Origin: Paludibacter jiangxiensis
GTDB lineage: Bacteria; Bacteroidota; Bacteroidia; Bacteroidales; Paludibacteraceae
Length of the DNA stretch: 64,000 nucleotides
Assembly (NCBI RefSeq): GCF_001618385.1
Contig: NZ_BDCR01000001.1
Coordinates: 372,001 to 436,000, forward strand
Reading direction: 5' to 3'
The notes under the pieces are model-generated. The model saw only the letters and a program-made list of their open reading frames with translations, ran no database searches and was not told where the DNA came from. The number at the start of each line of letters is the position of its first letter. Position 1 is the first letter of the stretch. Of this stretch, positions 36,287-64,000 are shown piece after piece. A program made the translations under genes and the position numbers.

Positions 36287-36316
36287 CCGATCCTCATGAG
36301 GGTCGGCTTTTGTTTT
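36287..36316. terminator. Terminator closing the dcw cluster
   Basis: CCGATCCTCA pairs with TGAGGGTCGG (36287-36306, one mismatched centre pair), followed by CTTTTGTTTT. It lies between murG and the convergent regulator gene, overlapping the latter's stop by a base or two. Confidence 0.8.
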
Positions 36317-39170
36317 ACAATCCCATCAGAAATTCCGTCAGGTTTTGTTCGTGAGGAAGATTCAGTTTTTTCCTTAGCCTGTACCTTGCCATTTCAATAC
36401 TTTTGGAAGATATATTCATCAGGCCGGCAATTTCTTTTGAACTGATATTCATCCGTATGTATGCCGCCAGTTTCAGATCTGATGTTGTAAGCCCCGGGAA
36501 CTGAGTACTCAACTTAACGAGATAGTTATCGTGTGTCTTATTGAAACTCATTTCAAAGACTTTCCATTCTTCATCCGGGTTCTTATTCTTTTCAACGATG
36601 TGTTTCAGCCCCCTCAGCTCCGAAGATGGAATTGTTCTATTCAAAACAAGTTTTGCAATTTCAGCGTCCAGTTTGCTCATCAGTTTATTCTTGTGCAACA
36701 TTGATTTTGTCACACGCGAAAGCTCATCGATTTGAGATTTTACCTGTTCCTGCAGCACCCGATTTTCCATCTTTGCCATCTCTTTCTCATGCTCGTTTTC
36801 AATACGTTTTTGCTCTTTCAGCCATCGACTTTGTAAATATTTATAATAGAGCAGAGCAAGACCTGCAACCAGCAGAAGAAACAAACAAAAACCAATCCAG
36901 CCCATGTACCAGGGCGGCAAAATAGTAATCCGGAGTTCCTGTGAATAATAAACTTCATTTGTACCAACAATGGTTGCCTTGACCTGAAAAACGTAATCAC
37001 CCGCTGGCAAATTAGTAAACGTTGCAATGTTACTTGATGATGCGATAGAGAAGTTTTCCGAGTTTCCCTTCAGGCGATAACTATACCGTATGTTTCCTTC
37101 GTTTTCATAATCAGGCAGAGTAAACCGTATAAAAATTGTATTATGCTTGTACGGAAACTTAATAGCATGGGTTGCGTAATAATCGAGAGAATTAGGTAAA
37201 GACAAAGGTTTCAAGACATTGGTGAATGTTCCGATATCGCGGAGATAAACCATATTCTGCTTTGTTTTGGGAGAATAGTTTGCATTCATCACGGCAAAAC
37301 TATTCGACGTACAAACCATGTAAGATCCATCGGATATCTTCTCTACATCTTCATATGTTTTGATGAGTTGTTTGTAGAGCGATTCCATGTTCCGGCTCTC
37401 TATAGTAGGTTTTTGCGTAAGGTAAGCCTTGATACAGAAAAACTGATCGGCCGCATAGCACCACATCCTGTCGGCATCCAATTGCAAACGATGAATATTA
37501 GCTTTTTTCGGCATCAAACGATTGATAAGCGGATCTGGAATAAATCTGTTCAACGCATAGTCGAACTTAAGAATACCTTTTACCCCATCAAGCGCAAATA
37601 CGTTCCCATTATAAGAATAAATTCCTCTGGTAGTAACATGATTAATGCCAATATCTTCCAACTGGCTGCTACTGGATACAACATTCTCAAAGTTTGAATC
37701 AAACTTTACTTTACAAAAGCCGGCCGAAAGACTTCCAACATAAATATTATTATCTCTGTCCTTCGCCAAGGATGATCCATCGTAGGGAAAAACGGCCTGC
37801 GCTTTGATTGTATATTGACTCCCCTTGATATGCATCACACAAAGCCCGTCATAGGTAAGAAACAAAACGGTATTGTCATCAATTTTCAACCAATGAGAAG
37901 TTCCGCTCTTGGTATAAATAAAATCACCCTTTGATCCTTCTACGGCATAAATCCCCTTATTATGAGCACACAGCAATTTATTTCCCACTACCTGCAATGC
38001 CCAAACCTGTCCCTGAGACTTCGGCATAAGAGTTAAGGGTAATTCTCGTTCAGGATAAGACAGATCGGCAATCGCACAACTAAACAAGCCCTGATTAGTA
38101 GCAAAGTAAAGTCTGCCATTAAATTCCTTCACCTGATAAACCGAACCAAGCACCCCTTTCGGATCAGGAAATGTACGGATGGGGCTGTTTAGCTGGATGT
38201 GTGCAATTCCTCGGTCCAATCCCAGCCACAGGTTGTTTGTCTGATCGGAAAAGATGCTCAACACAGTATTATTTGGCATTCCTTTAGGCTTGTTGATGGT
38301 TGACTGTATATTCCCATTGTGGTCAGTAATAAGCAGACCATTCAGAATGGTTCCAAAGGCAAACTTTCCTCCGGGGAGAGAAACCATGCTGAATATTTGG
38401 TTCTTTATAAGGAAATCATTACACGGGAAATTACATTTTGAAATACGTCCGTTTTCCATCATATAAAGCCCTCTGTCAATCGTTGCAATTAAAATGGCAT
38501 TAGCAGAATAAGTCTCCATTCCATATACACAATCTCCGGTAAAAATTTCGCCACCGGGAACACCTACAAGCCTGTCATCTTTCAGCTCCATCAGTCCAAG
38601 TACCTTTTCCTGCGCAAACAAGCGATCGTTTACCCGAAAAAGAAACTGAAAACGATTGGGCGCCGGTATTATTGAAATTGATTTAGTTTCAGTGTTGTAT
38701 TTATAAATATTCTTGAAACTATGGAAATAGACCGAATTATGAAAGGGAACTATTTTCCAGATTTCTTCATCGGCAAAATGGAGATTTGATGCTTGGGTGA
38801 GCGAGGTATACTTAAGTTTACGGGTAGAAATATCTTCTGTCCAATATCCAAATTCATTCCGGACTCCGGTATAAATTTTCTGGTCATCAGTAATCGCTAT
38901 ACTGCGTACGTTGGGCGCAAATTTCGGCAAAGGATAGAGCGTCCATTGGCTCCCGTCATACTCCAGCAAACCGGCCGAATTTGCAAAATACATGTACCCT
39001 TTCTTGTTTTGTGCAATCGCCCAGGTTTGATTCGCAGCATTGTATACATTCTTGTCAAAATAGGTGATTTTAGGAACACAAACATTCTCAATTTTTTCGA
39101 CACCGGCAAAAACGCTCTCCGACAAAAATGAAAATAAGCAAAATACTGTAACATAAATACATGCTTTCAT
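36315..39170 (-). CDS. Membrane-spanning PUL regulator: propeller, Y_Y_Y, HTH
   Basis: 951 residues from the ATG at 39170, which gives a good signal peptide (MKACIYVTVFCLFSFLSESV); starts at 39212 or 39227 leave almost no leader after the -7 box. Residues about 30-650 are a periplasmic two-blade-type beta-propeller sensor (repeats such as NLWLGLDRGIAHI, NRLYFATNQGLFSC-like). A Y_Y_Y domain (about 665-745, IRYSYRLKGNSENF) precedes one membrane helix near 755-778, a coiled coil, and a C-terminal LuxR-like HTH (LTTSDLKLAAYIRMNISSKE, about 890-945). There is no histidine-kinase or receiver domain, so it is a one-component switch, not a hybrid two-component system. It is divergent from susC and should sense a glycan fragment and control that locus. 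Confidence 0.85.
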   Translation of the reverse strand: MKACIYVTVFCLFSFLSESVFAGVEKIENVCVPKITYFDKNVYNAANQTWAIAQNKKGYMYFANSAGLLEYDGSQWTLYPLPKFAPNVRSIAITDDQKIYTGVRNEFGYWTEDISTRKLKYTSLTQASNLHFADEEIWKIVPFHNSVYFHSFKNIYKYNTETKSISIIPAPNRFQFLFRVNDRLFAQEKVLGLMELKDDRLVGVPGGEIFTGDCVYGMETYSANAILIATIDRGLYMMENGRISKCNFPCNDFLIKNQIFSMVSLPGGKFAFGTILNGLLITDHNGNIQSTINKPKGMPNNTVLSIFSDQTNNLWLGLDRGIAHIQLNSPIRTFPDPKGVLGSVYQVKEFNGRLYFATNQGLFSCAIADLSYPERELPLTLMPKSQGQVWALQVVGNKLLCAHNKGIYAVEGSKGDFIYTKSGTSHWLKIDDNTVLFLTYDGLCVMHIKGSQYTIKAQAVFPYDGSSLAKDRDNNIYVGSLSAGFCKVKFDSNFENVVSSSSQLEDIGINHVTTRGIYSYNGNVFALDGVKGILKFDYALNRFIPDPLINRLMPKKANIHRLQLDADRMWCYAADQFFCIKAYLTQKPTIESRNMESLYKQLIKTYEDVEKISDGSYMVCTSNSFAVMNANYSPKTKQNMVYLRDIGTFTNVLKPLSLPNSLDYYATHAIKFPYKHNTIFIRFTLPDYENEGNIRYSYRLKGNSENFSIASSSNIATFTNLPAGDYVFQVKATIVGTNEVYYSQELRITILPPWYMGWIGFCLFLLLVAGLALLYYKYLQSRWLKEQKRIENEHEKEMAKMENRVLQEQVKSQIDELSRVTKSMLHKNKLMSKLDAEIAKLVLNRTIPSSELRGLKHIVEKNKNPDEEWKVFEMSFNKTHDNYLVKLSTQFPGLTTSDLKLAAYIRMNISSKEIAGLMNISSKSIEMARYRLRKKLNLPHEQNLTEFLMGL

Positions 39171-39224
39171 GAAGTATTTTATTAATAAGGTTAAATTGAC
39201 ATATTTGAGCATTATTACAAATGA

Positions 39225-39232
39225 CAAAGATA
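39225..39232 (-). promoter_or_regulatory. Putative -7 box of the PUL regulator gene
   Basis: The minus strand reads TATCTTTG, a full match to TAnnTTTG. The transcript would start near 39218, about 48 bases before the ATG at 39170. Confidence 0.45.
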
Positions 39233-56018: not shown

Positions 56019-57278
56019 TTATTTCACATTTTTACCTCTGAGGAGATTCACATTTCCCTTCAGTTTAAACTTTTTACCATCCGTACCTGTAGCTGAAATA
56101 AGATAGTAATAAACTCCCGGAGGAGCCAGCTTCCCTCCTACTCTGCCATCCCAGCCCTGAGCGGGATCTGTTGAGGTGTAAACTCGGCCAGCCCAGGATG
56201 AGTAAAGCAATATTTTATAGTCAGCAATCGATCGGTAAGATACCCGGAATTGATCATTTTGCCCGTCCCCATTGGGTGTAAACACATTGGGCACGTTAAT
56301 AAATGAAGAACTAACTTTTACGGTCAACGAATCAGAGTGAGAACAAGAACCGGTACTGTTGGTTACTGTCAGAGTCACCTTATAGTCTCCCGTTTCATTG
56401 AAAACATAACGAAGATCTGCATCTGTGTACCTCAAATAATTGCTCGTATTAGCAAGATTGTAAATTCTCCATTCATAAAATTGCGTAACCGGAAGGTTGG
56501 CATTACTCTTGAACGAAACATTTAACGGCCCCGACCCTTCGAGCGTCCCAATTTTTCGTCCCGATTCGTTGGCAGCATCTCTTTCAACAATACTGCCCGT
56601 TGGATGACACTCCACGCGAATTGCTTTGTACATATCAGAAGTTACTGTGGCTGCTATCCCAAATAACGTTGCATACTGATCTCCGGAAAGGGTAAAAGAT
56701 GTATCCTTATACGGGGCATTCAACACAATGGTTGTGAACGGATAAGTCTCGGTCAGGCTTCTGGTAATTGCGGACCACTGACCCGAAGCGTATTTCTGAT
56801 CGGGATAAGATACTGTAAACTGACGGCTGAGAAGCTGCTTTGTGCTGTTTTTGTCGTAATACACCAAATCGGGTATCTTTCCTGATAAGTTCAATGATAT
56901 ATTGCTGCATTTATCAATACCTTCTGAAACAGCAAGAGCATTTAACGAAGGCAAATATTTTTGATAGTCAATCACCCAGATATAATATTGGACTCCATTA
57001 GCAGTCAACACATAACCCGTTCCATCCTCTACTGAAATAGCCGACAAGTTGCTCACAAAAGAGCCGTCATATTTTTTCCAAAGATAGCTCGAAGCTGATC
57101 CTGCAAACTGAATCTGATTATCAGCCGTAATCCCGTTGAACAGGAACACTGCATCGATATTTTTCACAGCACTACCAGTCAGCTGGATTGAACGACCCGA
57201 ACCGGATGAAATGAACTGAGCAAAACCACTTGTTGTGATAAAACTCAGAAGTATACTAAGGGCAATCTTTTTTATCAT
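56019..57278 (-). CDS. T9SS cargo with type B sorting domain (gliding-motility-associated C-terminus)
   Basis: 419 residues. A signal peptide (MIKKIALSILLSFITTSGFA) is followed by about 320 residues of beta-sandwich character, including a PKD-like repeat (FNETGDYKVTLTVTNSTGSC, about 285-315). The C-terminal 90 residues are the type B / CHU_C sorting domain: INVPNVFTPNGDGQNDQFRV, YSSWAGRVYTSTDPAQGWDG and LAPPGVYYYLISATG. It should be exported by the type IX secretion system and remain at the cell surface or be released. No catalytic domain is recognised, so it may be an adhesin or structural surface protein. Related cargo genes sit next to porV- or sprF-like partners; none is here. Confidence 0.88.
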   Translation of the reverse strand: MIKKIALSILLSFITTSGFAQFISSGSGRSIQLTGSAVKNIDAVFLFNGITADNQIQFAGSASSYLWKKYDGSFVSNLSAISVEDGTGYVLTANGVQYYIWVIDYQKYLPSLNALAVSEGIDKCSNISLNLSGKIPDLVYYDKNSTKQLLSRQFTVSYPDQKYASGQWSAITRSLTETYPFTTIVLNAPYKDTSFTLSGDQYATLFGIAATVTSDMYKAIRVECHPTGSIVERDAANESGRKIGTLEGSGPLNVSFKSNANLPVTQFYEWRIYNLANTSNYLRYTDADLRYVFNETGDYKVTLTVTNSTGSCSHSDSLTVKVSSSFINVPNVFTPNGDGQNDQFRVSYRSIADYKILLYSSWAGRVYTSTDPAQGWDGRVGGKLAPPGVYYYLISATGTDGKKFKLKGNVNLLRGKNVK

Positions 57279-57507
57279 ACGTCGCTATTAAGTAAAAATC
57301 GGCTTAAATCACTCATTCAAACTTTATCTGACAGAAAAAGCAAATTGACAAAAAGGCAATTATAAATTGCAAAATTACTATTTAATTTACATGTTGACAA
57401 AACTAGGGTTGATTCCTCTTGTAAACGAATTGGAATCAATAATATTACACTTTTCCACAAGAAATGACCCACTTAGCGTAAAAGTTCGGCGTTTAACAAC
57501 ATTTTAC

Positions 57508-57515
57508 TATCTTTG
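57508..57515 (+). promoter_or_regulatory. Putative -7 box of the TPR-HTH array
   Basis: TATCTTTG is a full match to TAnnTTTG, 20 bases before the ATG at 57535. TTCG at 57485-57488, 19 bases upstream, is a 3-of-4 match to -33. It would drive the first three paralogues, whose gaps are only 24 and 29 bases. Confidence 0.5.
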
Positions 57516-57534
57516 CCATACACCAACTAAAATC

Positions 57535-59133
57535 ATGCGTAAATACCTATTGTTTATATTAACATTAATAGTATTTGCCAGCTGCAAGCAAACACCCACA
57601 TACGACAAAAAATTGCTTGCTGCAGCTGGCAGCCTGGTAGAAATCTACCCGGGAAGCGCTCTCCAAAAGCTAAAACGGTTATCTCCCACACACTTATCTC
57701 CGTATGACAATGCATTATACGCCCTTTTAACGTGCAAAGCTCTTGATAAATGCGGACAATTGGGAGAATCTGATTCTCTTATCAAAATTGCCTCGTCGTA
57801 CTTTCCTCATGTCAATGACTACGAAAAATCAGCATGCTCTTTTCTATATCAATCAAGGTGCGCCCGCAACAGGGAAGATATATCTGCCAGAGCAGAAAAT
57901 CTCAATAAAGCCATTAAGTTTGGGTTGGCAAGCCAGAACAACAAGCTGACCGGCATCCTCTATTACGAAAAAGCGGCACTTTACAAAGATCAACAACTTC
58001 CTGACAGTGTCATTCACTATGGAATTTTAGCTTTCAGAACACTACAAAAAGGAGGCGACCCCCGCAGTATTTGCAATTCTCTTTTGGCAACAGGAGATGG
58101 TTTTTATAAAAAAAATAATTTCCAGGAGGCATTGCATTATTACAAGATGGCTGAACACGAATCATTAAAAACAAAAGGAGTCAATCTTCAAACGACAGCT
58201 TATCATCTTATTAGCCGCTCATATTATTGCTTACACCAATACGATTCTGCTCTTTTATATGGCAGACTATCTCTCAAAACCAAAGATACGTTTGAAGCGG
58301 AAAAACACCTGAACCTCGGAACTATTTTTGTAAAGAAAGGCGTGATAGATTCTGCCAAATATTATCTACGTCAATGTTTGCACGCAAAAAATCTTTTATC
58401 GGATTGCTACCTGCTATTACAAGAGGCTGAAGAAAAGCAAGGAAACATAAAAGCAGCTATCCAATATTCCTCATTTATCGAAGCTGCCAAAGATTCAGAC
58501 TATCAAAGATCGTTGGTGTCCAGTTCTATTTTAATGAAAAAAAAATACAATTCAGAAAAAGCGCAGGTCGAAAACAAACGGCTTTTAATTCACAATCAGC
58601 AATTTACAATTCTATCAATTTTATCTATTCTCCTGTGCTTTGTGATTTCGACATTCGTTTTAATAGAAAAAAACCGAAAAAGGAAGTTAGAGTTGCAAAA
58701 CGAAGCAGCTCAGAATGTCATTTACCAACAACAGCTTCAATTGCAATCGGAACAGATCAAAAAAATTGAGATACTGCAAAAAATGATTCAACTCAAACAT
58801 ATCCCGGAAAGTAATCTGACACAAATCGGGGCTCAGTATCTCAAGTTATTTGGCGAAGACAGCAATTTGATTCCTGCTGACATTGATGCCATGACCGAGG
58901 TAATTGACAATGCATTTAATGGGCTATCGAAACGAATCAAAGAACTGTATCCCCATTTCACCCCACGAGAAGTTCAGGTATGTTGTTGCCTTAGAGCCGG
59001 ATTTGATCATGGCGCAATACTCACTATTTTTGACATAAAAAGTGAGACATACTATCGTTATCGTTCTAATATCAGAAAGAAGATGAATGCAGGTCAGGAT
59101 GACAAAATTGAGCAGATTCTATCTGAGATATAA
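57535..59133 (+). CDS. Membrane-spanning TPR/HTH regulator, paralogue 1
   Basis: 532 residues from the ATG at 57535; a longer frame to 57367 covers the promoter. Order: lipoprotein-like signal (MRKYLLFILTLIVFASCKQ, lipobox FASC); periplasmic TPR helices (about 25-340; DSVIHYGILAFRTL, EALHYYKMAEHESL); one membrane helix (about 356-378); cytoplasmic coiled coil (QQQLQLQSEQIKKIEILQKM); linker IGAQYLKLFGE; and a LuxR-like HTH (FTPREVQVCCCLRAGFDHGA, SETYYRYRSNIRKKMN, about 478-530). The parts imply that an extracytoplasmic signal is read by the TPRs and passed through the membrane to DNA binding. No kinase or receiver domain. Target genes and ligand unknown. Confidence 0.85.
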   Translation: MRKYLLFILTLIVFASCKQTPTYDKKLLAAAGSLVEIYPGSALQKLKRLSPTHLSPYDNALYALLTCKALDKCGQLGESDSLIKIASSYFPHVNDYEKSACSFLYQSRCARNREDISARAENLNKAIKFGLASQNNKLTGILYYEKAALYKDQQLPDSVIHYGILAFRTLQKGGDPRSICNSLLATGDGFYKKNNFQEALHYYKMAEHESLKTKGVNLQTTAYHLISRSYYCLHQYDSALLYGRLSLKTKDTFEAEKHLNLGTIFVKKGVIDSAKYYLRQCLHAKNLLSDCYLLLQEAEEKQGNIKAAIQYSSFIEAAKDSDYQRSLVSSSILMKKKYNSEKAQVENKRLLIHNQQFTILSILSILLCFVISTFVLIEKNRKRKLELQNEAAQNVIYQQQLQLQSEQIKKIEILQKMIQLKHIPESNLTQIGAQYLKLFGEDSNLIPADIDAMTEVIDNAFNGLSKRIKELYPHFTPREVQVCCCLRAGFDHGAILTIFDIKSETYYRYRSNIRKKMNAGQDDKIEQILSEI

Positions 59134-59157
59134 CAACGGTCTAATTTTTTCGATGAA

Positions 59158-60792
59158 ATGGGCACAAATTCCAATATTTCCTTCCGGCAGATTCTTCAAA
59201 TATCCGCTCTCTGTTGCTACTGTTGCATACTATCAGGATGCAGGCACACATCATCGAAAGACCTCACAATATTAACGCGTGCAGATAGCTTAATGGCAAA
59301 CCAGCCGGATAGCTCTATAGCATTATTGAAAAAGATTCCTCATCCAAAGCAACTAAAGCAAAAAGATTATGCACTATATGCTCTATTAATGTGTCAGGGC
59401 ATGGATAAATGCGGAATAGACATTAAATCTGACAGTTTAATAAAAGAAGCATTGAACTATTACGATAGAAATCAAGATTCATTCAGAACTGGGTATGTCT
59501 ATTTATATTTATCCCGTATTTACAGAAATCAAGAAAATGATCAAAAACGCTCCGAAGCTTTGATCAAAGCAATCCCTTACGCCGTTAATTCTAAAGACAA
59601 TAACTTATTAGGGTTTATATATGCCGACAAAGCCGCAATTTATCAAAACCAGGGTCTGATTGACAGCATGATGTTCTATTACAAAAAGTCTTTAAGATCA
59701 TTAACTATCGCCAATGACAAAAGAAATCGAAATATTGCTTTATTAGAAATTGGATATGGATATTTTCAAAAAGGCGATCTTGATAGTGCTCTTTATTACT
59801 ACAAGAAGGCTGAACAAGAATTGGTCAGATTCGAAGACAAGATAATAAAGACCTCATTGGATCGGCTAATTGGGGTAGCATATCTGAAATTTCAAAATTA
59901 TCCGTCTGCTCTCCAATACCTAAGATCATCAATAAAAACATCAGATTCATACGATTACCATAAATACATTCTACTTTCACAAGTATTTCTAAAAACAGGA
60001 GAGATTGATTCAACTCATTTTTATCTCAAAAAATATTTACAAACGAAGCAAGATATTCCGGAATATTATGACATCTGTAGTGAATTGACTTTGAAAAAAG
60101 GTAATTTATCGGATGCATTAAAATATTCCCGAATGTATCTAAATGCAAAAAACGCAGAATATAAGCACTATTTAAACACCAGTCTCAACGGGCTGGAAAA
60201 AAAGCTGAACTTTGAAAAAGTTGAAGCTGAAAACCAAAAATTAACAATCAAAAACCAACGCTTTACAATTATCATTGCTCTGGTTACAATCCTCTGTTTT
60301 ATTATTGCAGTTATAATCCTGATAGAACAAATCAAAAAAAATAAATTGGCCTTAAAGAATGAAGCTGACATCAAACTTATTAACCAGCAAAAAATCAAAC
60401 TACAAACTGAACGGATATCAAAGATTACTATTCTACAAAACCTGATCCAGCTTAAACTTATTCCTGAACGTAATTTATCCCAAATAGGAGCTCAATATCT
60501 TAAACTATTTGGAGAGACAAATTACTCACTAACACAACACACCGAAGATATAATTAAGAATATTGACGTTGTTTTTGATGGTTTTTCCCAGAAGCTATTA
60601 GACCGATTTCCGTCTCTAACCCAAAGAGAAATATTGGTGTGCTGTTGTTTAAGAGCCGGAATCAATCAAGAATCAATACTATCAATGCTTAGTGTAAAAA
60701 GCGAAACATACTATCATTATCGTTCAAACATCAGAAAGAAGATGAACGCCGGACAAGATGATAAAGTCGAACAAATATTATCTGCAATATAA
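59158..60792 (+). CDS. Membrane-spanning TPR/HTH regulator, paralogue 2
   Basis: 544 residues, 24 bases behind paralogue 1 and clearly homologous over its full length. Lipobox ILSGC near residue 28 after MGTNSNISFRQILQISALCC; TPR region with DSLMANQPDSSIALLKKI and YALYALLMCQGMDKCGIDIK; membrane helix about 369-390; coiled coil with KIKLQTERISKITILQNLIQ; HTH with LTQREILVCCCLRAGINQES and the same RSNIRKKMNAGQDDK tail as paralogue 1. The near-identity of the final 20 residues suggests recent duplication or gene conversion. Two ATGs (59153, 59158) lie at the start; only 59158 is in frame. Confidence 0.85.
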   Translation: MGTNSNISFRQILQISALCCYCCILSGCRHTSSKDLTILTRADSLMANQPDSSIALLKKIPHPKQLKQKDYALYALLMCQGMDKCGIDIKSDSLIKEALNYYDRNQDSFRTGYVYLYLSRIYRNQENDQKRSEALIKAIPYAVNSKDNNLLGFIYADKAAIYQNQGLIDSMMFYYKKSLRSLTIANDKRNRNIALLEIGYGYFQKGDLDSALYYYKKAEQELVRFEDKIIKTSLDRLIGVAYLKFQNYPSALQYLRSSIKTSDSYDYHKYILLSQVFLKTGEIDSTHFYLKKYLQTKQDIPEYYDICSELTLKKGNLSDALKYSRMYLNAKNAEYKHYLNTSLNGLEKKLNFEKVEAENQKLTIKNQRFTIIIALVTILCFIIAVIILIEQIKKNKLALKNEADIKLINQQKIKLQTERISKITILQNLIQLKLIPERNLSQIGAQYLKLFGETNYSLTQHTEDIIKNIDVVFDGFSQKLLDRFPSLTQREILVCCCLRAGINQESILSMLSVKSETYYHYRSNIRKKMNAGQDDKVEQILSAI

Positions 60793-60821
60793 GCTGTAGA
60801 AACTAGAAATTCATCGTTGAA

Positions 60822-62459
60822 ATGGATCAATTTTCATTCATAAAGCACAAAATAATACAGCTATCTATACTATTATGTAGCTGTAGCTTTCTGTTTTTTG
60901 CTTGCAAACGGACATCCTCTCACGATCGCAGACTCTTAACCAGAGCAGACTCCTTAATGAAAACACGCCCTGACAGCGCAATCAAGCTTTTAAAATCCAT
61001 TCGGCTTCCGAACAAACTAAACGAAGAAGACCATGCTGCTTATTCCTTATTATTAAGTCAGGCTTTTGACAAATGTGACATTTATATTGAATCAGATTCT
61101 ATAATAAATACCGCCGTATCGTTTTATTCAAAAACTAACAATGCTCCTAAAGCTGCTTATGCATACTTTTACTTTTCAAGATGTGCAAAAAACAGACATG
61201 ACCAACAATTGAGAGCTAATAGATTAATCCAGGCATTCCCCTACGCCGTCCAAAGCAAAGATTACCAATTAATAGGCTTTTTAAATGCCGAAAAAGCAGA
61301 CATTTTCAGAGAACAACGAATGCTTGACAGTGTAATAAAATACGACAAAAAGTCTCTACAATACTTATCAATGGCCAAGGATCGAAGGAATATTGCTCTT
61401 TCGTATTTAGGATTAGGTTCTGATTATTACCAGAAAGAACAGTATTCATTAGCATTATCATACATGCATAAGGCATTACAGGATTCTTACAAGGTAAAGG
61501 ATTCTCTATTAATATCATCCTGCTACGGGAACAGCTCTCTCATTTACTATTATCTAAAGCAATATAACCGGGCATTAAATGCAATAAGATTAGCTTTAGC
61601 ATATAACACCCAATATGATTATGCGCAATGGATGAATTTGGGAGCCATTCTAATAAAGACCGGCAAATTAGACTCTGCGGAATTTTATCTCAAGAAAGCG
61701 ATTCAAACAAAGATGGCACTTCCAGACTGTTATATGTTACTGCAAGAAATATATATGAACAAGCATATGTACAAAGATGCCTTGCTATATTCAAAACAAT
61801 ATCTTGCAGCTAAAGACTCAAGTTACAGACAAACTCTCACATCAAGCTTTTCCGGATTAGAGAGAAAGATTAATTACGAAGAAGTATCTAAACAAAATCA
61901 GAAATTAATAATAAGGAATCAACAATACATTATGCTGATTGCAATAAGTTCTCTTTTAATCTTCATAATTACCACAATTGTACTTATTGAAAGAAACAAG
62001 AAAAAGAAACAAAAAATAAAGATTGTATCCGCAAGAAACATCATTAACCTCCAGAAAATCCAGTTACAATCAGAACAGATTTCCAAAATTGCAATCATCC
62101 AAAAATTAATTCAACTTCAACTAATTCCCAAAACCAACTTATCACAAATCGGAGCTCAATACCTTAAAATATTCAACGAAGAACATAACAAGTTAATCTC
62201 CGAACAGGAAGTAATAAGCCCGAATACAGGTCCATCTTTTGAATCTTTCTCGCTTGAACTTAAACGCAGATTCCCTTCTCTTACGGAAAAAGAACTACAG
62301 ATCTGTTATTATATTAGAGTCGGGTTCAATCTTGAATTAATTCTCGCTTCTCTCAATATCAAAAACGACACCTATTATAAATACAGATCAAATATTAGAA
62401 AAAAGATCTGTCCACACGAAAATACCAAGATCGAACAAATTCTTTCCGCAATACCTTAA
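60822..62459 (+). CDS. Membrane-spanning TPR/HTH regulator, paralogue 3
   Basis: 545 residues, 29 bases behind paralogue 2 with the same layout: lipobox LFFAC near residue 27, TPRs (DSAIKLLKSIRLPNKLNEED, YALAYNTQYDYAQWMNLGAI-like units), membrane helix about 369-390, coiled coil (KIQLQSEQISKIAIIQKLIQ), linker IGAQYLKIFNEE and HTH (LTEKELQICYYIRVGFNLEL, DTYYKYRSNIRKKICPHENT). The HTH is more diverged: the CCC of paralogues 1 and 2 is CYY here, and the tail differs, so it may bind other sites. It probably ends the first transcript; a terminator follows at 62748. Confidence 0.85.
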   Translation: MDQFSFIKHKIIQLSILLCSCSFLFFACKRTSSHDRRLLTRADSLMKTRPDSAIKLLKSIRLPNKLNEEDHAAYSLLLSQAFDKCDIYIESDSIINTAVSFYSKTNNAPKAAYAYFYFSRCAKNRHDQQLRANRLIQAFPYAVQSKDYQLIGFLNAEKADIFREQRMLDSVIKYDKKSLQYLSMAKDRRNIALSYLGLGSDYYQKEQYSLALSYMHKALQDSYKVKDSLLISSCYGNSSLIYYYLKQYNRALNAIRLALAYNTQYDYAQWMNLGAILIKTGKLDSAEFYLKKAIQTKMALPDCYMLLQEIYMNKHMYKDALLYSKQYLAAKDSSYRQTLTSSFSGLERKINYEEVSKQNQKLIIRNQQYIMLIAISSLLIFIITTIVLIERNKKKKQKIKIVSARNIINLQKIQLQSEQISKIAIIQKLIQLQLIPKTNLSQIGAQYLKIFNEEHNKLISEQEVISPNTGPSFESFSLELKRRFPSLTEKELQICYYIRVGFNLELILASLNIKNDTYYKYRSNIRKKICPHENTKIEQILSAIP

Positions 62460-62747
62460 AGAAAAACCAACATTTTCGGATCAATATCTCCTTATACATA
62501 CTAACCACCTTCCAATAGAATAATATATCACTGACCATAAGTATGTTACAAACACCTCAAATACACACTATACATATAATTTTTCTTCCCAAAATCAGAA
62601 TCCATATTTCTGTTTTCCGTAATTTTACAGAATTGAACAGCTTTCTGATCTTGTCTTAAGATTTTGAAGGTTTTTAGTGGAAAATAGAGTGGAATTGTAC
62701 GAATAATTACCAATCCATTTATTCCCTATTAGATTTTGGTTAGTTAG

Positions 62748-62780
62748 AAAGGGAACGACGCGAAGTCGTTCCCTTTTTCA
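62748..62780 (+). terminator. Terminator before paralogue 4
   Basis: A perfect 12-bp stem, AAAGGGAACGAC (62748-62759) with GTCGTTCCCTTT (62765-62776), loop GCGAA, followed by TT. The 394-base gap 62460-62853 contains this, an A/T-rich stretch of about 290 bases before it with no recognised gene, and a promoter after it. Confidence 0.8.
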
Positions 62781-62807
62781 TTTCGCCAATATGTCCGGGA
62801 GCCTATC

Positions 62808-62835
62808 TTGAGATTTATTTTATTGCGTATCTTTG
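62808..62835 (+). promoter_or_regulatory. Putative promoter of paralogue 4
   Basis: TTG at 62808-62810 and a perfect TATCTTTG at 62828-62835, spacer 17 bases. The -7 box is the same octamer as at 57508 in front of paralogue 1. Confidence 0.5.
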
Positions 62836-62853
62836 CTATCAAATTTTACATTC

Positions 62854-64000
62854 ATGGGCCGGATCATCTTCATATTTTCCTTCATTCTGCTAATAACAGC
62901 GTGTCATCATTCTTCTCCAAAGGATCAAGCCTTATTATATAATGCCGACCGAATAATGGAAATCTATCCAGACAGCGCATTAAAACTTCTGAATGGTATC
63001 AAGACCCCCCGCCAACTTTCATCTAAGGATTATGCCTTATACTCTTTTGCAATGACTCAAGCTTTAGATAAAGCATTGATTATTGTCCAATCTGACTCTC
63101 TTATAAAAAATGCTGTTACATATTATGCTGATGGAAAGGATCCAATGCGCGCTGGATATTCATATTTTTATCTCTCAAGATGTGAACGTAACCAAGGGAA
63201 TCCGAAAGGTCAAGCTGAATCTCTTCTAAAGGCGATCCCATACGCAATAAAAAGCAACAATTACAAATTACTTGGTTTTATATACAGCGAAAAAGCTTCG
63301 ATTTATAGAGAGCAAAACCAAATTGACAGCATGATTCACTATAACAAACTATCATACAACTCCCTAAAGAGAGCAAAAGATCAAAGAAACTGCATTGTCT
63401 CTCTTATCGGCATTGGCTACGGATATTACCAACTACAACAATTTTCTACTGCCCTGAAATACTATTACCAAGCTGAACATGAAGCGCAAGACAGTAAAGA
63501 CAGCACGTTACTCGCTCCAATTTACAAATTTTCCAGCTTAGCTTTATTCTACCTCAAAGACTACACAAAATCATCGCTTTACGCAAAACAAGGTATCGCA
63601 ATAGAAAAACAAAAAGATCCCTCAAACTGGTTTAATTTAGCTGCTATTTTTGCAAAGCAGAACAAATTGGATTCTGCAAAAATCTATCTTTCAAAGTGCA
63701 TTAGCCATGGATATAAAGCCCCTGACTGCTATGAATTGTTCGAAGACATTTTTGAACAAGAACGAAACTTCCAAGAAGCAATTAAATATGCCAAACTCAC
63801 GATCAATGCTAAAGATTCAACAAATAAGGCAGCTTTGCTCACCAGCTTTGCGGGTATGGAAAAAAAATACAACTATGAACGCATTGCCACTGAAAACAAA
63901 ACACTTATTATAGCAAACCAGCGAAATAAAATTGCCGTACTGTTCCTTTTGCTTGGCTTAAGTGGAATCATAGTAATTGTTTTGTTATGGAGATACAGGC
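62854..64000 (+). CDS. Membrane-spanning TPR protein, paralogue 4, cut by window end
   Basis: 382 codons are visible from the ATG at 62854 with no stop. It opens with MGRIIFIFSFILLITACHHS (lipobox ITAC), then the same TPR region as its neighbours: IYPDSALKLLNGI, YALYSFAMTQALDKALIIVQ, SLIKNAVTYYADGKDP, EAIKYAKLTINAKDS. A membrane helix begins near residue 359 (IAVLFLLLGLSGIIVIVLLW), just before the window ends. The coiled coil and HTH expected by homology are not visible. It has its own promoter and lies behind a terminator, so it is regulated apart from copies 1-3. Confidence 0.82.
   Translation, partial: MGRIIFIFSFILLITACHHSSPKDQALLYNADRIMEIYPDSALKLLNGIKTPRQLSSKDYALYSFAMTQALDKALIIVQSDSLIKNAVTYYADGKDPMRAGYSYFYLSRCERNQGNPKGQAESLLKAIPYAIKSNNYKLLGFIYSEKASIYREQNQIDSMIHYNKLSYNSLKRAKDQRNCIVSLIGIGYGYYQLQQFSTALKYYYQAEHEAQDSKDSTLLAPIYKFSSLALFYLKDYTKSSLYAKQGIAIEKQKDPSNWFNLAAIFAKQNKLDSAKIYLSKCISHGYKAPDCYELFEDIFEQERNFQEAIKYAKLTINAKDSTNKAALLTSFAGMEKKYNYERIATENKTLIIANQRNKIAVLFLLLGLSGIIVIVLLWRYR

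Follow-up and report, generated by a model that had tools for sequence, protein, structure and literature searches.

A TPR–HTH membrane regulator and a small exported DUF3244 product as a candidate receptor–ligand module in Paludibacter jiangxiensis

What do the membrane-bound regulators of Bacteroidota that carry a sensor of tetratricopeptide repeats (TPRs) respond to, and does the gene for the ligand lie beside the gene for the receptor? The ligand of periplasmic TPR sensors in this phylum was described as an open question, for FimS, in 2024 (in passages of PMC11053733). The question is raised again by a 64 000-nt stretch of the Paludibacter jiangxiensis genome (contig NZ_BDCR01000001.1; G000:C1:372001-436000), hereafter the window, whose numbering we use. 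Near its end the first-pass annotation, made from the letters of the window, had described four head-to-tail paralogues (copies 1–4) with a lipobox, TPRs, a membrane helix, a coiled coil and a helix-turn-helix (HTH) region; the open reading frames (ORFs), the Pfam TPR matches and the mutual identities bear this description out. In the extended stretch of the same genome (L009, where L009:12455 corresponds to window position 64455) copy 4 is complete, ending at 64455 with an HTH-like end, and is followed by a small gene for a predicted exported protein with a DUF3244 domain. We propose, with a probability of about 0.5, that copy 4 and this gene make up a candidate self-contained receptor–ligand module. 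The linkage of DUF3244 genes to the regulator family, divergence specific to the sensor, tandem peptide repeats in the partner and a duplicated promoter motif suggest this reading. As the locus offers a candidate ligand, a candidate operator and natural sensor variants, the question can be tested with short synthetic peptides.

The DUF3244 gene starts 695 bp past the end of copy 4, outside the window. The 129-residue product has a signal-peptide-like start, followed by the segment GGTLPPVHIESMSVAESS and then by the DUF3244 domain, which is immunoglobulin (Ig)-like. It passes the PF11589 cut-off of 25 bits, with 27.0 bits in the protein scan and 26.1 in the genome search, and is the sole DUF3244 match of its genome at E≤0.001. 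A PDB sequence search with this protein gave no match; the DUF3244 partner in G154:C99 matches 3d33 (E 9e-6), and the small proteins match PF18962 weakly. The earlier statement that no obvious target operon is adjacent does not hold, since a strong candidate for a partner or target lies just past the window end.

DUF3244 genes were surveyed at two taxonomic levels. Both whole-genome surveys scored limited candidates per genome, so that the counts refer to the matches listed and further matches are possible; frames of up to 160 residues were counted. In 61 genomes of the family nine DUF3244 genes in short frames pass the cut-off, and each has a regulator of the copy 1–4 family at most 2 kb away; seven are downstream of it on the same strand and two divergent, one of the latter (G034:C14) nearly 2 kb off. 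In 198 genomes of the order, at E≤1e-6, 14 of 15 such genes adjoin a family regulator (12 came from the regulator survey list, and G150:C3 and G234:C1:366356 from fetching the regions; one, in G075, is divergent). The fifteenth (G150:C17) shows no neighbour because it starts 304 bp from a contig end. Frames longer than 160 residues, which were left out, account for 11 of the 20 over-cut-off rows in the family and 32 of the 47 rows in the order; they are probably type IX secretion tails, which the DUF3244 model also picks up. None of the four under-cut-off short-frame matches in the family (G056, G028, G047 and G018) has a family regulator in the stretch fetched; in G056 the contig ends nearby, and the two with a frame of at least 40 residues from a start codon look by eye like pieces of secretion tails. 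A similar pair is on record in Bacteroides thetaiotaomicron, where the TPR gene BT_3442 adjoins BT_3441, a homologue of the Ig-like BVU_0276 (3d33), according to passages of PMC2954219. Beyond that gene order, we found no description of the regulator–DUF3244 pairing in the parts of the open-licence literature consulted.

The surveyed loci also show some variant arrangements. A frame of 170–180 residues stands between the DUF3244 gene and the next receptor gene at L049:3773-4312 (G001) and L030:2414-2923 (G035). In L150 (G241) two consecutive exported genes of DUF3244-like appearance, the first a DUF3244 match, lie behind one receptor. In L173 (G256:C1:212736-214325) a family receptor gene with an internal stop is followed by an exported gene that looks DUF3244-like by eye.

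Divergence of copy 4 among genomes of the genus is concentrated in the sensor. Compared with the orthologues in G260, G257 and G060, the sensor is 63, 48 and 54% identical, the membrane and coil part 96, 94 and 85%, and the HTH 96, 94 and 86%. In the control comparisons (sensor, membrane/coil and HTH, respectively) copy 1 gives 93, 98 and 99% against G260 and 80, 90 and 91% against G257, and copy 3, which is missing at the G260 locus, gives 86, 85 and 80% against G257. Copy 2 gives 92, 92 and 88% against G260, with an exception in G257 (49, 79 and 80%). The G257 copy 2 sensor is 57% identical (up to 80% locally) to copy 4 of P. jiangxiensis versus 47% to its copy 2; the copy-4-like part is the middle of the sensor, and the initial 90 residues and the output half are copy-2-like. 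This suggests transfer of a sensor cassette between the two paralogues. Among the four copy 4 alleles variation peaks in TPR5–8 (residues 178–319).

The same pattern is visible in the DNA. In 300-bp blocks against G260 the flanks are 88–100% identical, most of the copy 4 sensor 70–76% (minimum 56%), the output half 80–89%, the first copy of the promoter motif (P1, below) 94%, the small gene 85% and the sequence directly past it 96%; the island of divergence extends from about 62500 through the small gene. Against G257, identity dips at the sensors of copy 2 (48%) and copy 4 (53%) and at the small gene (64%). Between paralogues, the earlier view that the copies diverge in both the sensor and the DNA-binding halves can be refined. 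The sensors are 38–42% identical to one another, and the HTHs fall into two classes: those of copies 1–3 share 48–62% mutually, and that of copy 4 is 29–32% identical to them and 55% to that of a fifth copy found elsewhere in the genome. In three genomes whose copy-5 receptors go with almost identical 39-residue products, the sensors of these receptors are 91–94% identical.

The partner of copy 4 varies strongly within the genus. In place of the 129-residue DUF3244 protein of P. jiangxiensis, G260 has a 58-residue product that stops shortly after LPPVHIESMSVAESSTTL, an 18-residue motif identical in both genomes; the 86-residue product of G257 contains repeats of YVPLPPTRFVPLPPTRIESLSVV, and the 117-residue product of G060 has three ALIKYPIPPMHMDSQ units. 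Tandem peptide repeats are thus found in two of the four copy-4 loci. All nine internal codon differences between the repeat units (five in G257, four in G060) are synonymous, with a chance of about 5e-6 by codon make-up; outside these nine lie the non-synonymous changes, namely two trailing-edge differences and a Y/F difference in G257 and the spacer codon after a G060 unit. The copy-5-type product of P. jiangxiensis and G257 has 39 residues and ends in DDDPTNPPIKP, with one letter of that stretch changed in G260. Further copy-5-type partners have 118 (NPNPPLKS, G257), 121 (NPFPPIKT, G260) and 140 residues (NPNPPIKT, G256), and these three carry the DUF3244 domain with 38.5–42.7 bits; another receptor in G256 has, 1.2 kb behind it, a 53-residue product without the domain. 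The genus partners of 39, 58, 86 and 117 residues match no Pfam family at E≤1. Behind copy 5 of P. jiangxiensis (L020:11721-12487) the 39-residue exported frame is followed by a hairpin-like element and then by a separate 103-residue frame without a signal peptide, which resembles the Ig part by eye and matches no Pfam family.

We found a duplicated promoter-like motif (copies P1 and P2), TG(T/C)TAATATA(A/T)T...CTTTGTA, with exactly 54 bp from its first base to the C of CTTTG. Both copies precede the small gene in all four genomes with a copy-4 orthologue; none was found before copies 1 or 4. A search of eight genomes of the genus with TAATATAWT-N40-44-YTTTGTA gave nine matches, namely the eight P1/P2 sites and one elsewhere in G256, and the reversed-letter control gave four. 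In the four copy-4 genomes the motif with its spacing is present twice per genome, at P1 and P2, and nowhere else. The motif may be what the copy 4 HTH binds.

In P. jiangxiensis about 150 nt past P1 are conserved, fold better than shuffled sequences (z −3.4) and hold no conserved ORF; an open stretch seen there is lost in G257 by eye, and the candidate of a conserved ORF behind P1 was rejected. Both the P1 and the P2 unit end in a strong hairpin (z −4.8 and −7.5). With up to two mismatches, the 21-base hairpin core has seven matches in the eight genomes of the genus and none in the control; all are at copy-4 loci, two each in P. jiangxiensis, G257 and G260 and one in G060. We rejected the idea of a genome-wide repeat, as the core is confined to these loci. 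An Rfam scan of L009:10000-14000 gave nothing above the gathering score. The P1 unit (64567–64831) may be the source of a small RNA or the remnant of a duplicated small gene.

As to the receptors, in all four copies a hydrophobic stretch is followed by a Cys (residue 17 or 28) that has A, S or G directly before it (the lipobox), and each copy has Pfam TPR matches, a single hydrophobic helix and a C-terminal HTH-like region. We infer that the TPR part sits in the periplasm. Matches to GerE (the LuxR HTH; cut-off 23.5 bits) are weak in protein scans, with 20.1, 22.0 and 19.6 bits for copies 1–3; the C-terminal piece of copy 4 scores 12.3 bits (E 0.13). In the whole-genome search copies 1 and 2 reach or exceed the cut-off (23.5 and 25.8 bits), copy 3 scores 21.6 and copy 4 is not among the matches listed. 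Modelled with AlphaFold (mean pLDDT 80, pTM 0.55, alignment of 10 sequences), copy 4 of G260 has 16 TPR-like helices, i.e. eight TPR helix pairs, at residues 23–319, a long helix at 326–428 containing the membrane segment, and short helices at 448–533; residues 424–447 are below pLDDT 50. The helix order in this model and the 86–96% conservation point to an HTH in copy 4, the part that had been cut off in the window; a copy 4 without an HTH was rejected once the gene had been read to its end and the G260 orthologue modelled. In a Foldseek search against PDB, ranks 1–18 are eukaryotic or designed TPRs, led by LGN/Pins and designed ones, bacterial or phage proteins appear from rank 19 on, and the first of them are Rap and NprR, receptors of peptide pheromones (E 1e-6 to 1e-5; TM score by target 0.48–0.58 in the rows listed). 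A profile search also finds Rap and NprR, among many TPR matches. With five members in P. jiangxiensis, the earlier notion of an expanded family of one-component membrane regulators is supported.

If the receptor–ligand reading is right, the exported small product would bind the TPR superhelix of copy 4 in the periplasm. The ligand part would most likely be the proline-rich segment after the signal peptide (LPPVHIES, LPPTRIES, IPPMHMDS), with NPPIKP and NPNPPIKT as the corresponding segments of copy-5-type pairs. The binding signal would pass through the membrane helix and the coil to the HTH, which would bind the TGTTAATATAAT element upstream of the small gene (P1/P2) and turn the gene on, closing a feedback loop. 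Sensor and ligand would diversify, the output half and the operator staying fixed; copies 1–3 would share the sensor design, belong to the other HTH class and lack a dedicated ligand gene close by. Among the ligands first suggested (peptides, glycans or surface molecules) the partner gene evidence favours peptides. A more far-reaching version can be offered tentatively, as a possibility well short of even odds: a peptide quorum sensing of the Bacteroidales' own, with a secreted precursor, in some cases carrying a tandem proline-rich pheromone, and a membrane-spanning TPR–HTH receptor facing the periplasm, where sensor cassettes exchanged between paralogues and species create signalling types and the DNA-binding half and operator remain constant. 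In that case the Ig-like DUF3244 domain would serve the peptide as a dispensable carrier or export module.

Other explanations account for part of these data. It is possible, though rather doubtful, that the DUF3244 protein is a regulated effector, for instance a surface or secreted Ig-like protein, and that the TPR receptor senses something else (an environmental peptide, a glycan or a competitor molecule). Linkage and operator would be expected equally, sensor diversity could track diverse environmental ligands, and outside the genus most partners in the regions inspected are of Ig length, all five of those scanned matching DUF3244. Within the genus, however, several partners have no Ig domain or end before reaching it and have kept the exported N-terminal segment, as repeats in two loci, and in the copy-5 trio conservation of the sensor accompanies that of the peptide. 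It is unlikely that the small product acts as a feedback subunit in the periplasm, keeping the receptor of its own cell inactive until envelope stress titrates it away, with no signal between cells; tandem repeats of a short motif and fast divergence would not be expected of such a constant subunit. CpxP/CpxA is the model for a subunit titrated away in this manner, and here the signal peptide leads at least to the periplasm, the layout of the promoter motif is autoregulatory and an Ig-like fold (the 3d33 match of the G154 partner) suits protein–protein contact. Less probable still is an ordinary expansion of environmental sensors, in which divergence reflects relaxed constraint and recombination and the DUF3244 gene is a mere conserved neighbour. 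Relatives of the family do occur widely in the order, in 112 of 198 genomes at E≤1e-25, and a copy 2/copy 4 sensor exchange is suggested in G257; yet copies 1 and 3 of the same genomes lack such divergence and the DUF3244 linkage is nearly complete.

The receptor–ligand reading itself has to face several unfavourable observations. Many family regulators, copies 1–3 included, have no small gene of the DUF3244 kind behind them. In G260, DNA resembling the Ig-coding part of P. jiangxiensis persists past the stop of the small gene, so that this gene may be a recent truncation. The borders of the repeat units were set after the sequences had been seen, and a finer split of the G257 repeat makes the Y/F change a non-synonymous difference between half-units. 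The promoter pattern was derived from the very sites it recovers, in four related genomes, and variant sites would escape it. The likeness of the TPR part to Rap and NprR is generic, hence merely compatible with peptide binding, and export of the product beyond its signal-peptide-like start is not evident from the sequence. Motif and sensor do not evolve in step: LPPVHIESMSVAESSTTL is identical in P. jiangxiensis and G260, whose copy 4 sensors differ at 37% of positions. Finally, in the sensor dN (non-synonymous divergence) is 0.30–0.50, below dS (synonymous divergence), which is about 2 or saturated; the copy 4 output half also has a raised dS, 0.84 to G260 versus about 0.2 for copies 1 and 2. 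Among P. jiangxiensis, G260 and G257 pairs this half has dN of 0.017–0.031 and dS of 0.84–1.27, and against G060 dN of about 0.11 with dS saturated. Because sensor dN is below dS and output-half dS is raised, allele exchange or relaxed constraint, rather than proven positive selection, would explain the divergence; the values point to old alleles, to exchange and to a sensor under weaker constraint.

Several known systems resemble parts of this locus. NprR joins TPRs and an HTH in one protein, and the HTH of RRNPP receptors, where there is one, is N-terminal. In the RRNPP pairs of Bacillota (Rap/Phr, NprR/NprX, PlcR/PapR), as at copy 4, a TPR receptor adjoins a gene for a small exported product. 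The TPR domain (by Pfam, AlphaFold and Foldseek) is shared with them, as is the adjacent small gene, at copies 4 and 5; no small exported partner gene was seen in the regions inspected behind copies 1–3. In contrast to RRNPP receptors, copies 1–4 have N-terminal TPRs predicted to be periplasmic, a lipobox, a membrane helix and a C-terminal LuxR-like HTH. RRNPP receptors are cytoplasmic, and their survey covered complete Firmicutes genomes only (both from PMC10075063). The likeness of the copy 4 pair to RRNPP pairs is probably convergent. FimS of Porphyromonas gingivalis, also in Bacteroidales, has a periplasmic TPR sensor of similar size, and its NCBIfam model matches copies 1 and 3 weakly (E 8e-4 and 9e-4); its output, unlike theirs, is a histidine kinase, and it has two membrane helices. 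Its signal is unknown, a polypeptide being considered by the authors of PMC11053733 (2024) in the passages concerned. The best NCBIfam match of all four copies is the BT3442 family (NF053779; E 3e-20 to 3e-29). With 72.5, 102, 97.2 and 95.2 bits (the last for the cut copy 4) against a cut-off of 940, and with best stretches ending at profile position 418 or earlier of 563, they are not equivalog members. A survey of Bacteroidales ribosomally synthesized and post-translationally modified peptides (PMC10352776) reports TPR genes in two of its clusters and points to pheromone binding by TPR regulators elsewhere; neither DUF3244 nor LuxR occurs as a word in it. If the ligand travels between cells, the module would be a case of peptide signalling in a Gram-negative phylum, with an architecture that we did not find described in the open-licence literature searched.

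Table 1. Coordinates of the regulator copies, the small exported gene and the associated sequence elements (window numbering unless a contig or stretch is named)
Feature	Position	Strand	Description or basis
TATCTTTG promoter-like box, presumed copy 1–3 operon	57508–57515	+	sequence
Copy 1	57535–59133	+	532 aa; lipobox, TPR sensor, membrane helix, coil, HTH
Copy 2	59158–60792	+	544 aa; layout as copy 1
Copy 3	60822–62459	+	545 aa; layout as copy 1
Terminator-like inverted repeat and T-run, between copies 3 and 4	62748–62779	+	sequence, by eye
TATCTTTG promoter-like box of copy 4	62828–62835	+	sequence
Copy 4	62854–64000, on to 64455 (L009:12455)	+	533 aa; cut by window end; variable TPR sensor, conserved membrane/coil/HTH
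Promoter/operator copy P1	L009:12567-12627 = 64567–64627	+	sequence
Hairpin after P1, past conserved non-coding stretch	L009:12775-12831	+	sequence, folding
Promoter/operator copy P2	L009:13062-13122 = 65062–65122	+	sequence
DUF3244 small gene	L009:13151-13540 = 65151–65540	+	129 aa, exported (predicted)
Copy 5, fifth paralogue	L020:9880-11520 = C4:571880-573520		own genome

Identities to copy 2 of 43% (copy 1), 45% (copy 3) and 34–36% (copy 4) mark the copies as real paralogues, not chance likenesses. A profile search of the contigs with a narrow four-sequence alignment gave five loci; of the named records, two metagenome-assembled genomes match best, a 'Bacteroidota bacterium' (L021) and a 'Paludibacter sp.' (L022). 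Receptor ends and small genes of the genus loci L155 (G260) and L157 (G257) coincide with those of L021 and L022, and we treated them as identical loci. The Bacteroidota promoter consensus is TAnnTTTG. With gaps of 24 bp between copies 1 and 2 and 29 bp between copies 2 and 3, copies 1–3 look like a single operon behind the TATCTTTG box at 57508; the reading frame of copy 1, which has its ATG at 57535, is open already from a TTG at 57367. Immediately upstream lies a divergent gene (56019–57278, minus strand) for a protein with PKD and CHU_C (type IX secretion) domains, a possible target of copies 1–3.

The output half of the family is found in other proteins as well. The C-terminal part of a 970-residue frame in the window (36315–39227, minus strand) matches the membrane–coil–HTH half of the family profile (E 2e-11), and similar large frames are present at G000:C1:180616 and C4:464624, so the output module appears common to other sensor types. 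At L128:5311-7272 (minus strand; G060:C22) a relative of the TPR sensor and membrane part is fused to a histidine kinase (HisKA, HATPase_c) and has no HTH; to judge by its domains, it is a natural output swap.

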